IMG/VR virus record: IMGVR_UViG_3300015241_000024
Location: 1 to 38,060 of that record
Direction: 5' to 3' (one strand)
From: a virus
Length of the DNA stretch: 38,060 nucleotides
A program made the translations under genes and the position numbers. Of the stretch, positions 16,443-37,196 are shown one piece after another (the stretch's first letter is position 1; every line of letters begins with the position of its first letter). The notes under the pieces were generated by a model that searched no databases, was not told the DNA's origin, and saw only the letters and a list, made by a program, of their open reading frames with translations.

Positions 16443-17902
16443 ATCGCCGCAGGTTCCTCAGTTCGATGGGCCGCGGTGGCACGGCTGCCATCATCTATCC
16501 GCCGGCGAACGTGGTGCTTAGCGGCCACTCGTTCGTGGCTGGCGCGGATGCTACGAGACTCGGAATCACGGACCACGCATCGCGCATCAAGAACAGCCTG
16601 GACCCGAAGATTTTCACGTTCACGGCCATTGGGCACGGTGGATATCGCACGGGGCATGTGGGCGATGGCAGTGGTAACCAGCTGTTTCCCCTGGCGCCTA
16701 CTGAGATAGACCCGCTCCGCAAAGCGGGGCAGCTGAATTTCTTGCTGTACGAAGAGGTCATCAACAGCATCGGTTGGTACCAATCGGGGCCGGGCGGCGC
16801 GCTCGATTCGGGCCCCACGACCACGTTGACCATCTCGGACATGAACGCGTACTTTGCCGCGCGCCGCGCGGCGGGCTGGACGCCTGCAAACCAGTCGTAC
16901 ATCGGCGCATGCACCATGTACCCTGTTGCGTATTTCCCTGCGGGCCCGCCCAGCTTCCCCGTCACTCAGGACTACAGGCAATCCGTTAGAGATGTCAATA
17001 CATACGTGAGAGGTCTTACGGCTACCGACTTTTTGATGGCGGAATTCGAGCTCGATGCGCTCACCGGGCATGACCCCATCGACAATCGCATCTATAGCTC
17101 CTCGGACAACCTGCATCCGACGGATTGGGGGCACCAACTCTACGCGGATCGAATCATCCGCAACATTTACGCGCAGTACGCGTTGCGCACCGGCATTTCT
17201 TTGCCGTGGGACCCGCGCCTCCTTGGGAACATCATCTTCCGCTACGAAGCCGACAGAAGCTCAATTGTCTATACAGGTGACACGCACGCGGTGAGCGCAT
17301 GGTCGGACAAGAGCACGTGGGCCTATGACCTGTCCGCGAGCGGGGCTGCGCGGCCCACGTGGAACGCGCCGAACAAGAGCCTCGACGGCGCGGGTGCGGC
17401 GGCAATGACGACCGCGCTAACCGCGGACCTGTCCTTCACCTCGCAGCTTGAAGCGTTCGCGGTCTATCACTGCTCGAGCACCGGAACCATCGTCGTAGAA
17501 TATTCTCCGGACTACACGTCAGTTTCTGACGCATGGGCGTTGACGGGTGACGTTGCAGGCGCGCCTTGCATTATTGCAAAGGGAAACGTGGGCCTATCCA
17601 ACGCCATTGGGGTCACATTTCCAGGCATCAAGGCTGTTACCTTCCTGCTGGACAACACCAAGTCCAGTGGGCAGGGGGACATTCTCATTGACGGTGTCGA
17701 GGCCACTGCAACACGAATTGACGCGCCGAACGCGAACGCGCTGGGCAAGTACAAGCTGTCAGTTTTCGGGCGCGCGGGTGGGTCGCTGGGGAGCACGATG
17801 CAGCTCGATACCCTGCTGGTCTTCTCGGCCCCCCTCTCCAGCGTAGACCGCGCGCAGCTCATCTCGTGGGCCTACAATCGACGTGCGCAGTGGGCCGGAT
17901 AA
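16439..17902 (+). CDS. Tail spike/fibre with SGNH (GDSL-type) esterase and lectin-like domain
   Basis: From ATG 16439 (ATGA overlap) the product has 487 residues. Residues about 25-240 form an SGNH hydrolase: block I is VVLSGHSF with the likely nucleophile Ser31 (GHS in place of GDS), and block V is SSDNLHPTDWGHQLYADRI with Asp about 223 and His about 226. These enzymes remove ester-linked groups such as acetyls from polysaccharides. Residues about 255-487 are a second beta-rich lectin-like domain ending SWAYNRRAQWAG, much like the previous protein. The N-terminus MNRRRFLSSMGRGG resembles a twin-arginine signal, odd for a virion protein and probably a short attachment arm. The likely job is deacetylating host capsule or O-antigen. 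Confidence 0.68.
   Translation: MNRRRFLSSMGRGGTAAIIYPPANVVLSGHSFVAGADATRLGITDHASRIKNSLDPKIFTFTAIGHGGYRTGHVGDGSGNQLFPLAPTEIDPLRKAGQLNFLLYEEVINSIGWYQSGPGGALDSGPTTTLTISDMNAYFAARRAAGWTPANQSYIGACTMYPVAYFPAGPPSFPVTQDYRQSVRDVNTYVRGLTATDFLMAEFELDALTGHDPIDNRIYSSSDNLHPTDWGHQLYADRIIRNIYAQYALRTGISLPWDPRLLGNIIFRYEADRSSIVYTGDTHAVSAWSDKSTWAYDLSASGAARPTWNAPNKSLDGAGAAAMTTALTADLSFTSQLEAFAVYHCSSTGTIVVEYSPDYTSVSDAWALTGDVAGAPCIIAKGNVGLSNAIGVTFPGIKAVTFLLDNTKSSGQGDILIDGVEATATRIDAPNANALGKYKLSVFGRAGGSLGSTMQLDTLLVFSAPLSSVDRAQLISWAYNRRAQWAG
16993..17001 (-). repeat. GTATTGACA motif copy, antisense
   Basis: Exact 9-mer on the - strand inside the SGNH spike gene; the only exact copy opposite to the local gene direction. 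Confidence 0.7.
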
Positions 17903-29932: not shown

Positions 29933-30120
29933 GCTTGTGTCCCCTCTTATATATATTCCCCCCCATATATTTATATATAATACATAAGGTAATATACGTA
30001 TTTCATCCTATGTGTACAATTCAAGTGCGGATTGAAATGTATGTACCCTCCCAGACTGTAGACGATAGACGTTTTTTTTGATGGGGGAGGGGGCCATGGG
30101 GACGCACCGATTGGTAGGGA
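29933..30120. other. AT-rich intergenic region, possible replication origin
   Basis: No ORF is supported here. 29941-30000 is only 28% GC, with alternating TA runs (TATATATA near 29948 and 29973, TATAAT at 29976-29981), in a genome otherwise about 60% GC or more. It directly follows the primase-helicase gene, where phage origins are often found. Further right an imperfect hairpin, CCCTCCC (30046-30052) with GGGAGGG (30085-30091), encloses a T8 run (30072-30079). Confidence 0.4.
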
Positions 30121-30996: not shown

Positions 30997-31025
30997 TTGG
31001 GGCGTTGAAGGACAAGGGTGAGACG

Positions 31026-31205
31026 ATGATTTACGCGTGCTACACGAATCGAAGTGGTGACTACATGCAGGTGGCCGGCAAGAGCTTGGAGCAGATCAGC
31101 GACCGACTCAAGTGTGCGCGGTACGACGGCCCGAAGGTCGTGGTGACGAAAGCCAACGACGAGGTGGTCGGGTGGGCAGACGCCACGGACTACAAGAGCG
31201 TGTGA
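31026..31205 (+). CDS. Small hypothetical protein (59 aa)
   Basis: ATG 31026 has the same leader as 30785 (GGGTGAGACGATG) and the same product type: a small protein with a YACYTNRSGDYMQVAGKSLE start and a beta end (GPKVVVTKANDEVVGWADA). It is the last protein-coding gene before the tRNA-like region. Unknown. Confidence 0.55.
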   Translation: MIYACYTNRSGDYMQVAGKSLEQISDRLKCARYDGPKVVVTKANDEVVGWADATDYKSV

Positions 31206-31212
31206 ATGAATC

Positions 31213-31255
31213 GCCCCTGCACTCGGCTAAGTCGGTTCGAATCCGACAAGGGGCA
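31213..31255 (+). ncRNA. tRNA-like minihelix (acceptor stem plus T arm only)
   Basis: A perfect 5-bp T stem (GTCGG 31231-31235, CCGAC 31243-31247) with the canonical loop TTCGAAT, followed by AAGGGGC. GCCCCT at 31213-31218 pairs with AGGGGC (31249-31254), giving 6 bp of acceptor stem. Only 12 bases lie between acceptor and T arm, so no D or anticodon arm is possible. This is a shortened tRNA or a deliberate minihelix; the matching 5' acceptor for a full-length tRNA is not found upstream. Confidence 0.5.
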
Positions 31256-31259
31256 CGAC

Positions 31260-31418
31260 GTGCAACCCCGTTGCTGAACGCGAAAGCGTAGACGCGGGAA
31301 AGTGGTTGCTCGCTGGCCGAGAACGGCCCGTGCGGAGCCGGCGCGCAAAGGGACGCCTTACGACCTGACCGATGGGAAAGACCAATCACCTATGGCACCG
31401 AGGGAAAATCTGGTGCCA
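31260..31418 (+). other. Non-coding stretch with strong hairpins
   Basis: No ORF is supported. Hairpins seen: ACGC-GAAA-GCGT (31278-31289, GNRA tetraloop), GGCCG-AGAA-CGGCC (31315-31328) and TGGCACC/GGTGCCA (31393-31399 with 31412-31418, 12-base loop). The density suggests a structured RNA between two tRNA-like elements. It could be part of a larger RNA with them. I see no known riboswitch or intron core. Confidence 0.4.
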
Positions 31419-31420
31419 AT

Positions 31421-31513
31421 CCAACTGAGTTGTGAAGGCGCATACGAGATAGGCAGATGAAACACTCTGGACGATTTTAAACCGAGGAGCAGGTTCGAAT
31501 CCTGCCGGTTGGA
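31421..31513 (+). tRNA. tRNA-like element with abnormal anticodon region
   Basis: Acceptor CCAACTG (31421-31427) pairs with CGGTTGG (31506-31512), 7 bp with one G-U. A D arm TGTG/CATA has the loop AAGGCG with the conserved GG. The T arm GCAGG-TTCGAAT-CCTGC is perfect. The 44 bases between D and T arms form no 5+7+5 anticodon arm; the best pairings (CAGA/TCTG, then an imperfect CTCTGG/CCGAGG) leave large loops. At 93 bases it might be a type II tRNA with long variable arm, or a decayed or intron-bearing one. The anticodon cannot be called. Confidence 0.4.
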
Positions 31514-31522
31514 CGAGGTAAC

Positions 31523-31612
31523 ATGAAAAAGCTCATCATCAAGACCATCTCGGTTCGCGTCACCAAGCCTTCAACTGGGCATGACTCGAGTCCGAGTATC
31601 TCGGAGAAATAA
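31523..31612 (+). CDS. Very small ORF between tRNA-like elements (29 aa)
   Basis: ATG 31523 follows a GAGGT ribosome-site-like sequence by three bases and reads 29 codons to TAA 31610. The product is basic at the start (KKLIIKTISVRVTK) and Ser-rich at the end. It fills the gap between two tRNA-like elements. It may be a real mini-protein; support is limited to the ribosome site. Confidence 0.35.
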   Translation: MKKLIIKTISVRVTKPSTGHDSSPSISEK

Positions 31613-31620
31613 GCAGCACA

Positions 31621-31693
31621 CCTGCACGAGGCCTTGGTTGGCCTGCCGAGCCTTATAAGCACGGCGTGCCTGGTTCGAATCCAGGGTGCAGGA
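31621..31693 (+). tRNA. tRNA, anticodon probably UAU (Ile, codon AUA)
   Basis: 73 bases: acceptor CCTGCAC/GTGCAGG (7 bp), D arm GGCC-TTGGTT-GGCC, T arm CCTGG-TTCGAAT-CCAGG, discriminator A at 31693. The anticodon arm is unusual: a 7-bp stem GCCGAGC (31645-31651)/GCACGGC (31659-31665) with an internal A-A mismatch and the loop CTTATAA, so the anticodon would be TAT. It would read AUA, a codon rare in GC-rich genomes. CCA is not encoded. Confidence 0.55.
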
Positions 31694-31695
31694 CT

Positions 31696-31749
31696 GCCGC
31701 GTCATCTGGACTCTGTTCCCCCTCAGAGGACGGGTGGCGCGGCTTTTTT
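31696..31749 (+). terminator. Intrinsic terminator after the tRNA
   Basis: Outer stem GCCGCG (31696-31701)/CGCGGC (31738-31743), inner stem CTCTG (31711-31715)/CAGAG (31724-31728), directly followed by six T (31744-31749). It begins 3 bases after the tRNA, fitting a tRNA transcript end. Confidence 0.65.
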
Positions 31750-31760
31750 GGCGCGGATCC

Positions 31761-31848
31761 AGTGGGTAAGCGCATGGTGAGCGGTTGTGAGGCCAGCGAA
31801 TTTAAAAGTCCGTCTCACAAATGGCGCGGTTCGATTCCGCGGCCCACT
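31761..31848 (+). tRNA. tRNA-like element with enlarged anticodon loop
   Basis: Acceptor AGTGGGT (31761-31767)/GCCCACT (31842-31848), extended by CC/GG to 9 bp. A D arm (CGC/GCG, loop contains GG) and a perfect T arm (CGCGG-TTCGATT-CCGCG, 31825-31841) are present. The anticodon stem TTGTGAG (31785-31791)/CTCACAA (31814-31820) is 7 bp but encloses 22 bases rather than 7. The extra bases might be a tiny intron, or the element may be a decayed tRNA. The anticodon cannot be called. Confidence 0.42.
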
Positions 31849-31876
31849 GGTGATGCACAACTTCGAGGGGCGACAC

Positions 31877-32188
31877 ATGATGAAGTCTATGAAAATCGCA
31901 ATATCGCTCATGGCGTGTGCACTTGTCGTGGTCGGATGCGGGTCCGCCGTCGATGCCGTGCGGGAGACCGAAGATCAGAAGGTCACCTGCGTCGACTATT
32001 GGGCCGTCGCTTCGTATCCCCAGGGGGACATGGCGGATCTGTCGCTGCACATCGAAGCGGCCGCCCATGACGATTCCAAGAACATCGAGGAGAAGGCATC
32101 GACCTACGTTCGAGAAGGCGCGAATGGTCCGGAGGTGGTTGCCGGCTGTTTCGTGCCAGGGTACGTGCTGTTTGTGAGGCAACAGTGA
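31877..32188 (+). CDS. Lipoprotein
   Basis: From ATG 31877 (ribosome site GAGGGG), 103 residues: a basic start (MMKSMK), a hydrophobic core (IAISLMACALVVVGCGS) with lipobox VVGC, then a polar mature part with two more Cys. Phage lipoproteins often block superinfection or modify the envelope; here nothing further supports a role. A second ATG at 31880 is equally possible. Confidence 0.65.
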   Translation: MMKSMKIAISLMACALVVVGCGSAVDAVRETEDQKVTCVDYWAVASYPQGDMADLSLHIEAAAHDDSKNIEEKASTYVREGANGPEVVAGCFVPGYVLFVRQQ

Positions 32189-32483: not shown

Positions 32484-32981
32484 ATGACAGGACGGCCTAC
32501 GACGTGCACTGAGGAATTGGCTTTGAGGATTGCCAGGCACCTCCGCCGCGGACGTACGATGCGGTGTGCGGCGGGACTCGAGGGAGTGCCGTTCCAAAAC
32601 ATTATGAATTGGCGACGTGATGGCCGAAAAGGTGTCGAGCCATATGCCACCTTTTGGAAGCTAACGCATGAGGCCGAAGCCAAAGCCGAGGACATCTTTA
32701 CAGGTGTTTTTACGAGGCGCGCGCGTGCTAAGCCTGGCACTTTGGTGGATACGGACGGCGCGAAGTTGGCAATGGAATGGCTAAAGCGCAGACGGTGGAA
32801 AGACTGGTGGCGCGAGAATGCTGGTACCGGTCAGTGGGAGAAAGTGCCCACAACGATGAGCGACGACGAGCTGAAAACAGCGATGAAACGCGAGCTGAAA
32901 AAACTTGCAAAACGGACGGACGACCGCAGATTGGTCGAGGTGCTCGATGCCGTGGATGATGAGGAAATACGAGAAGAGTGA
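32484..32981 (+). CDS. terS: Terminase small subunit
   Basis: A 165-residue protein with an N-terminal helix-turn-helix-like part (EELALRIARHLRRGRTMRCA, AGLEGVPFQNIMNWRRDGRK), a central helical oligomerisation region and an acidic/basic C-terminus, as in small terminases that mark the DNA for packaging. It lies upstream of the large subunit. The gene has no normal ribosome site: a copy of GTATTGACA ends 2 bases before its ATG, so initiation may be leaderless-like or the 9-mer may be a binding site. Confidence 0.7.
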   Translation: MTGRPTTCTEELALRIARHLRRGRTMRCAAGLEGVPFQNIMNWRRDGRKGVEPYATFWKLTHEAEAKAEDIFTGVFTRRARAKPGTLVDTDGAKLAMEWLKRRRWKDWWRENAGTGQWEKVPTTMSDDELKTAMKRELKKLAKRTDDRRLVEVLDAVDDEEIREE

Positions 32982-35570: not shown

Positions 35571-37196
35571 TTGGTCGAGGCATCGAGCTCGCGGGGAACC
35601 AGTGACCTGGTCATCCCCGCGAGCTTTTTGTCGTTCCTCGAGATGGTCAACGTCACGCCAACGCTCGCGCAACGGGTGGCCTGCCTGGTGGCTTACGACG
35701 GGCTAGAGCCGTGCGAGCTCGAGGGCGACGAGAGGGACATGGCCTACGAGCTGTTCGGGCCCGTAGAGCGCTTCCCGGCCATCGCACGGGCTCACGTGTT
35801 CGCGTTGTGCGGTGGTCGCGCGGGCAAGACCTACGTGCTCGGCGCGCTCCGCCTGGTGCACGGCGCGTACGTTCGTGACCTGTCGTCTCTGGCCCCGGGG
35901 GAAAACGCCGTGGCGCTCAGCATCGCGCCGTCCGACTTCATGCGGCAACAAATTATCAACTATCAGCTTGGCTGCATCCGCTCGGTGCCCGAGCTGAAAG
36001 CGACCATCGTCGCGCCGCGTTACCTGAAAGATTACGATCGGCCGGGCTCGTTCTCGATTCTGCGGCCCGATGGGCAGACCGTCGCGTTCGAGGGAGGCGT
36101 CTCGACACGTGGTGGTTATGGCGGACGCGCGCGGTCGCTCACCGATTGCCTCATGGACGAGTGCGCGTTCTTTCAGGATGCTGCGCACACGGTGAACGAC
36201 CAGGAGATTTTCAAGGCGGCGAGCCCTCGCGTGCTCCCCGGTGGGCAGATGATTGCGCCCACGACGGCGTGGGCGAAGACCGGATACCACTGGGAGCGTT
36301 GGCGAGAGAATTCAGCCAAAAAGATACAGGAAGAGCAAGATGTCGGTGCACCTAAGAACGCCATATCGATACATGCATCGACAACTACGCTCAGGCCCGC
36401 GGCAACCGAGATGGTCGAGCGCGAACGCTCTATCGATGGCGAGAATGCTCGCAGGGAATTCGATGCCATTCCCCAAGGCTCGACCCCATTGTCGTTCTTT
36501 CGCGAGGAGGAGCTCGCGCCATGCTTCGACGATTCGATGCCCTGGCCACTGCCGCCTGCGGGCTACGACGGTGCGCATCCGGAGATGAAGACGGCCGGCG
36601 CGGACTTTGGGTTCCGGTCGAACAGCAGTGCGCTTGCCATTACGCACAAGGCAGCCGGCCAGGTTGTGTTGGCGAATATAGAGGAGCTCCGCCCGGCACC
36701 GGGAATGCCCCTCCGGCCACGTGCCACGGCGGACGCGTTTGTGGGCATCTGCCAGCTTCACGAGGTGGGTGGCATCATGGCGGACGGCCACTACCGGGAG
36801 AGCATCGTCGAGAACCTCGGGGGCAGGATTGGACTCGTGGACGCCCCGGTGACGCCGTCGGAGGCGTTCATCCGGGCTCGGTCGCTTATTCGGAACGGCG
36901 TGGTTCGGATGCCGAATCCCAAGAAGTACCCCGTCATTGACCGCCTGGTGCGTCAATTGAAGGAGACGAAGGGGCAAGCGCTGGCCGGCGGTGGATTCGC
37001 CATCACCTTGCCCCTTTGGCCGGACGGCTCGCACGGCGATCTGGCCGCGGCGTTCGTGCTCTCGCTTTACCAGTTTGGTGGCAACGTGGCTGCGGCTACG
37101 GCGCCGAAGGTCGGTACCGAAGAATGGGAAGAAGCGGAGCGCAAGAAGCGACGAGCTCTTGCAAACCAGCGCAATCGTGGGAAAATGTGGACATGA
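35571..37196 (+). CDS. terL: Terminase large subunit
   Basis: A 541-residue packaging motor. Walker A CGGRAGKT (residues 80-87), Walker B with Asp-Glu in LMDECAFF (about 194-201), then the nuclease domain with GADFGFRSNS (about 343-352) and a late acidic HGDLAAAF (about 487). It pumps DNA into the head and cuts it. The start is uncertain: TTG 35571, or CTG 35544 which is coupled to the previous stop (CTGA). It lies just before the portal, as usual, with the stop coupled to the next ATG. Confidence 0.88.
   Translation: MVEASSSRGTSDLVIPASFLSFLEMVNVTPTLAQRVACLVAYDGLEPCELEGDERDMAYELFGPVERFPAIARAHVFALCGGRAGKTYVLGALRLVHGAYVRDLSSLAPGENAVALSIAPSDFMRQQIINYQLGCIRSVPELKATIVAPRYLKDYDRPGSFSILRPDGQTVAFEGGVSTRGGYGGRARSLTDCLMDECAFFQDAAHTVNDQEIFKAASPRVLPGGQMIAPTTAWAKTGYHWERWRENSAKKIQEEQDVGAPKNAISIHASTTTLRPAATEMVERERSIDGENARREFDAIPQGSTPLSFFREEELAPCFDDSMPWPLPPAGYDGAHPEMKTAGADFGFRSNSSALAITHKAAGQVVLANIEELRPAPGMPLRPRATADAFVGICQLHEVGGIMADGHYRESIVENLGGRIGLVDAPVTPSEAFIRARSLIRNGVVRMPNPKKYPVIDRLVRQLKETKGQALAGGGFAITLPLWPDGSHGDLAAAFVLSLYQFGGNVAAATAPKVGTEEWEEAERKKRRALANQRNRGKMWT

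Follow-up and report, generated by a model that had tools for sequence, protein, structure and literature searches.

Four tRNA-like elements, here called E1 to E4, lie together in a phage genome, and most of them keep the acceptor and T arms and lack the part that decodes, which raises the question whether such elements are remains of a tRNA array or RNAs maintained for another use. The purpose of phage tRNAs is still debated. Among the proposed roles are substitution for host tRNAs that anticodon nucleases have cleaved (PMC10264068) and enabling the phage to integrate at host tRNA genes (PMC10865867); integration also leaves tRNA fragments behind (PMC9897764). These proposals leave uncovered a non-decoding element with its own acceptor stem. 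An earlier note on this locus had considered the pattern unlike simple decay, and suggested decoys or processing signals.

The window, i.e., the whole stretch of DNA analysed, is the 38,060-base virus record IMGVR_UViG_3300015241_000024, with a GC content of 60% and a podovirus-like gene content (Table 1). An AT-rich stretch (tatatatatt...atatatttatatata) at 29935-30030, after the primase gene, is a candidate replication origin in this 60% GC genome. The nearest relatives found were the viral contig L013 and a prophage in genome G167, with TerL amino acid identities of 47% and 54-56%, respectively (overall about 47-56%); the portal-like ORF of the prophage reaches 58-62% against the window phage. 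Distant relatives came from a helicase search and a TerL alignment, and genome G003 is a helicase relative (44% at the amino acid level). Searches with the primase, the 60-aa ORF or TerL alone gave no relatives among viral contigs, and a DNA-level search with the window among phages gave no match. The host is probably a myxobacterium, and probably one from soil, because G167 belongs to the same order as a Polyangiaceae MAG. The four elements are missing upstream of TerS in both closest relatives, so that relatives this far removed have no copy of the cluster in which stem covariation could be followed. In the G167 prophage, too, a small lipoprotein-like ORF lies in the stretch from the replication genes to terminase; the prophage also carries a repeated TATAGGGGTTTCGGAGCC motif between the replication and lysis genes (L157:5570-5960) that resembles iterons or an operator array. 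On a contig of Bradyrhizobium sp. Oc8, two adjoining elements with T arm and acceptor (6/7 pairs; L024:17135-17193 and 17229-17376) are of odd length, are not called by ARAGORN, and lie 6 kb from a distant terminase homologue.

A structure-based scan of the 38-kb window (T stem of 5 bp, loop TTCRANY, and upstream a 7-nt acceptor strand that pairs at 6 or more positions) confirmed the reported cluster of four T arms with acceptors within 640 bases: exactly four elements were returned, all on the plus strand at 31213-31849, with none elsewhere in the window, against a chance expectation of 0.325 elements per window on both strands in Markov shuffles. A relaxed scan of the region (T stem 4/5) disclosed no additional remnant. 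The probability of an acceptor partner as good as the observed one arising by chance within 105 nt, or within the observed gap, was 0.119 or 0.014 for E1, 0.006 or 0.003 for E2, 0.003 or 0.001 for E3, and 0.008 or 0.005 for E4. All four elements combine a 7-nt acceptor with a 5-bp T stem and a TTCRANN loop; the matching acceptor claimed for each T arm is perfect in E2 to E4 and pairs at six of seven positions in E1. An arm with a 7-nt anticodon loop is found in E3 only, and CCA is encoded by none of the four. ARAGORN, one of the programs that the earlier note had suggested, calls E3 alone (Ile-TAT), and in Rfam every best score is below gathering (29 bits for tRNA, 47 for tRNA-Sec): E3 scores 27.5 bits as tRNA-Sec, and E4, E2 and E1 score 21.9, 14.1 and 13.2 bits as tRNA. 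Single-sequence folding gave z-scores of -2.45 (E1), -0.77 (E2), -3.55 (E3) and -1.80 (E4). Neither ARAGORN nor Rfam detected a tmRNA with tRNA-like ends and a tag ORF, and Rfam matches to 'Plastid-ycf2' were rejected, as these fall on the strand opposite to the T arms and score below gathering.

Along the strand, the 60-aa ORF is followed by E1, a 165-nt spacer, E2, the 29-codon ORF, E3, the terminator, E4 and the lipoprotein-like ORF. The terminator is absent from the list produced by a scan for consensus terminators. Folding of the spacer sequence 31257-31400 did not exceed chance (z -0.57) when this was considered as an additional structured RNA.

Table 1. Features of the window and of the Bixzunavirus element used for comparison.
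Feature	Position	Strand	Remarks
Helicases	25.7-29.9 kb
60-aa ORF	31023..31205	+	no Pfam family
E1, armless mini-tRNA-like element	31213..31255	+	43-nt acceptor/T minihelix; acceptor 31213-31219 / 31248-31254; T arm 31231-31247 (GTCGG TTCGAAT CCGAC); A73
E2, tRNA-like element	31421..31513	+	acceptor CCAACTG/CGGTTGG; T arm 31489-31505; A73
29-codon ORF (MKKLIIKTISVRVTKPSTGHDSSPSISEK)	31523..31612	+	read from sequence; GAGG ribosome-binding site
E3, divergent tRNA-Ile(UAU)	31621..31693	+	anticodon loop CTTATAA; T arm 31669-31685; A73
Predicted intrinsic terminator	31696..31749	+	48-nt hairpin (z -5.8), then TTTTTT
E4, cloverleaf	31761..31849	+	acceptor AGTGGGT/GCCCACT; T arm 31825-31841; G73
Small lipoprotein-like ORF	31877..32188	+	lipobox VVGC
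TerS	32484-32981
TerL	35571-37196
Portal-like ORF			runs off window end; likely continuation at window start
Bixzunavirus mini-element	L176:3518-3571		Mycobacterium phage Asterius 92517-92570

The retention of acceptor and T arms with loss of the decoding part in several neighbouring elements was described correctly, and the individual elements refine this anatomy. E1, the element with the weakest pairing, indeed lacks both D and anticodon arms, an 11-nt connector being all that joins the acceptor to the T arm; a pattern search for this architecture with its own acceptor gave no match, and its T arm and acceptor, with up to 2 mismatches allowed, were likewise not found in the 184 genomes searched from the likely host order. 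In E2, where the acceptor extends to 8 bp with a flanking T-A pair, good acceptor and T arms and the lack of a recognisable anticodon arm were borne out, but the D arm reported as good is a long, non-standard stem with a 4-nt loop (AAGG). Despite paired acceptor and T arms around its long centre, E2 as a whole folds barely better than shuffled sequence, and its T arm and acceptor found two imperfect matches only in the 184 genomes. E4, of which the acceptor reaches 9 bp when the outer CC/GG is counted and the D arm has the loop ATGGTGA, has the good acceptor, D and T arms ascribed to it, but it is not armless at the anticodon position: folding predicts a stem of 9 bp with a large loop at its end, i.e., a closed, over-long hairpin that replaces the anticodon loop, and E4 aligns over its full length to the Rfam tRNA model with a large insert in that loop. 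No self-splicing intron family in Rfam matched E4 or E2, and a common motif in their centres was not above chance. Among cultured phages, searches with E3 or E4 turned up common tRNA halves only, and a pattern search for the E4 acceptor gave one match, an odd element with two T arms.

E3 had been called nearly normal, but it has no U8/A14, its D arm has a short loop, and one of the 7 positions of its anticodon stem is mismatched. In Rfam it fits tRNA-Sec better than tRNA, which agrees with its long D stem with small loop and its lengthened anticodon stem; it was rejected as a tRNA-Sec on its score and on its anticodon, UAU and not UCA, and it also lacks the long variable arm. E3 is likely the single tRNA of the array able to decode, reading AUA codons.

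To assess how unusual these elements are, a survey was made of 78 viral loci in which CTTATAAG occurs together with a GGTTCGAATCC T arm (the anticodon and T-arm motif of E3); most of these loci are called tRNA-Ile(TAT). Non-redundant strict T arms near tRNA genes comprised 332 within ARAGORN tRNAs, 22 uncalled with a full acceptor, and 20 without acceptor, two of the latter being cut by a contig end; some of the 22 are ordinary tRNAs overlooked by ARAGORN and others are abnormal. At these rates, the chance that all three uncalled elements of the window keep the acceptor is about 0.17, and that of three uncalled elements among four in one array is about 0.005, which takes no account of the window having been chosen for its oddness. 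The claim that the pattern is unlike simple decay is weak: it draws no support from acceptor retention, but some from the unusual proportion of uncalled elements, by which alone the window stands out from the survey. In the survey sample, abnormal elements look like a recurrent minority in which acceptor retention is no commoner than loss, as in ordinary decay. Close pairs among the survey loci were too alike for selection analysis.

Several surveyed arrays, and that of the helicase relative G003, contain elements of the window's kind. Minis resembling E1 occur in L063 (53 nt, with encoded CCA), L107 and L105, and an element in L086 has a D arm and no anticodon arm. The tRNA array of G003 contains an Ile-TAT tRNA with a short D loop of the E3 type and an 80-nt cloverleaf whose anticodon arm, as in E4, forms an over-long closed hairpin on folding; L059 holds the third case, beside these two, of a sealed and extended anticodon arm. 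When the L063 mini was searched in cultured phages, the matches listed concerned its tRNA-Ser neighbour only. Other irregular forms were also encountered. One element of the G003 array (L039, about 53.7-54.5 kb) has D, anticodon and T arms and no acceptor partner; a single acceptor stem with two tandem T arms occurs at L027:1231-1324, L066:4728-4823 and L078:4886-4981, all on the minus strand; and two adjacent tRNA genes on a 210-kb virus contig (L069:2477-2590 and 2597-2704) contain related inserts of about 40 nt (GTACAGNTTGTATNANCTG...CTACAGC), one in each gene and at different places, possibly a small mobile or spliced insert.

A better documented case is a 54-nt element that lacks an anticodon arm and has a perfect acceptor and T arm, and which was present in the tRNA arrays of all seven Bixzunavirus mycobacteriophages fetched, between the peptidyl-tRNA hydrolase gene and a tRNA read as suppressor/Pyl(cta). 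A search found 190 records with at least 80% query cover, and a Bixzunavirus helicase control gene also found 190; the two sets have equal host make-up and were compared by totals rather than record by record. The element is unannotated in almost all records listed ('tRNA-OTHER' in phage Ronan). Among 15 phages its acceptor and T halves are invariant, and variation in its centre is confined to 2 of 23 sites, compared with 43 of 150 in the upstream flank; the p value of 4e-5 assumes independent sites and is overstated, as the flank changes fall in two haplotype blocks. In the set of seven phages it varies as little as the ordinary tRNAs do, and several of the latter are missing from, or replaced in, some genomes; the mini-element also persists through an indel that removes the downstream neighbour and CCA in some phages. 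This conservation indicates that phages can maintain a non-decoding tRNA-like element, and that one is kept as faithfully as a true tRNA lends the earlier claim some support. It concerns the Bixzunavirus element itself; by analogy, maintenance of E1, E2 and E4 is possible.

We read E1 to E4 as a small, strongly diverged and eroding phage tRNA array, made up of one tRNA that decodes and three tRNA-derived units that do not, with a probability of about 0.55. This reading is favoured because four clustered and co-oriented elements stand against 0.3 expected, because one of them is called as tRNA-Ile(TAT), because G003, L059, L063, L107, L105 and L086 carry similar abnormal elements, and because the Bixzunavirus mini-element is kept across its genus; it is weakened because the two closest relatives lack the cluster, acceptor loss is as common as retention in the survey, E2 folds poorly, and the E1 acceptor has a chance probability of 0.01-0.12. 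In such an array, a closed hairpin would have taken the place of the anticodon loop in E4, the anticodon arm would have been lost from E2, and E1 would have been reduced to acceptor and T arm. The acceptor/T half is the shape recognised by RNase P, 3'-processing enzymes and the CCA-adding enzyme, and because the units keep this shape, transcripts of the small ORFs would be expected to be cut at them with release of short RNAs. The structures, the lack of other copies, the terminator and the interleaving with small ORFs are observed; transcription and processing of the region, and any choice between selection and relic for E1, E2 and E4, are inferred. The chances are about even that the three are mainly relics, and somewhat poorer that at least one of them is a selected non-decoding RNA.

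The nearest alternative, to which we give close to even odds, is that of an old array losing genes by deletion and insertion, with acceptor/T halves still intact and function in E3 only. The near-equal numbers of uncalled survey elements that have lost (20) and kept (22) the acceptor, the missing cluster in the close relatives and the poor folding of E2 all agree with it, and E1 could be produced by one deletion; less readily explained are acceptor and T stems that are unbroken in four elements save for one mismatch in E1, in a region with no other remnants, and the Bixzunavirus mini-element illustrates that phages can keep such forms.

Two explanations that assign a function appear improbable, to a similar degree. 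The elements may be selected tRNA mimics that bind or occupy a protein that handles tRNAs, e.g., the CCA-adding enzyme, EF-Tu, peptidyl-tRNA hydrolase or a tRNA-cutting defence nuclease; the retained half would be the part that several such proteins are established to bind, anticodon arms are extended or missing in other phages too, and the conserved Bixzunavirus mini-element is positioned after a phage peptidyl-tRNA hydrolase gene. The target is, however, hypothetical, and the conservation described is that of the Bixzunavirus element. A proposal in favour (PMC10264068) is that phage tRNAs escape anticodon nucleases through altered anticodon loops, but its mechanism is restored decoding, which a tRNA lacking the anticodon arm would not provide. 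Alternatively, the units might chiefly serve as punctuation by which a polycistronic transcript is cut between small ORFs. This would suit the position of E1, 7 nt after the 60-aa ORF, and that of the 29-codon ORF, which has a ribosome-binding site, starts about 10 nt after E2 and stops 8 nt short of E3, and RNase P is established to cleave minimal acceptor/T substrates; phage tRNA genes, however, often lie between small ORFs without such a role, and E4 sits beyond the terminator. That the elements are attachment-site remnants of host tRNA genes (attP cores) is very improbable: in the terminase relative Rctr16k the 3' end of a tRNA-Leu lies close to the integrase gene, and tRNA 3' ends occur in several related myxobacterial loci, but the four elements differ from each other and each has its own 5' acceptor strand, no integrase was recognised among the window ORFs examined, and the host-order genomes, searched for E1 and E2 with the host order itself inferred, gave only the matches reported above. 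The Rctr16k tRNA-Leu end (L012:7514-7616) is itself probably an attachment site.

The window finding is real and of a recurrent kind, and look-alikes in phage tRNA clusters may not all be junk. If non-decoding members are kept, they cannot serve to supply codons or to replace tRNAs that have been cleaved, and another use of the acceptor/T half, as processing signal or protein decoy, becomes testable; the Bixzunavirus element, with about 190 sequenced phages that infect a laboratory host, is the practical case and the window the weaker one. A broader proposal, which we regard as rather unlikely at this stage, is that phage arrays hold recurrent, mostly unannotated and selected non-decoding tRNA-like RNAs that work via the tRNA-processing or tRNA-binding machinery, with E1, E2, E4 and the Bixzunavirus element as members; the class would span minihelices and cloverleaves with a sealed anticodon arm. 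No description of it was found in the open literature, a weak negative as subscription papers were mostly outside the search.

Among known systems, the tRNA cluster of T4 encodes stable RNAs that are not tRNAs, species 1 and 2, which the non-decoding units of the window may resemble in that respect. The arrays of the Bixzunavirus/C1 and Myrna mycobacteriophages share with the window co-oriented clustered genes between small ORFs and also hold some members that are short or have a short-loop D arm, but in the window ARAGORN calls one element of four, and three cannot decode. Fragments left by integration (PMC9897764) are likewise incomplete tRNAs with an intact 3' half, whereas the window elements have a matching 5' acceptor strand and four distinct sequences. 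The phage tRNAs of PMC10264068 share an altered anticodon region with the window elements, but still decode, unlike E1, E2 and E4. The Bixzunavirus mini-element resembles E1 in its acceptor and T arm, short joint, lack of an anticodon arm and place inside a tRNA array, and differs from it by a short hairpin in the joint, a sometimes encoded CCA, and conservation throughout the genus.
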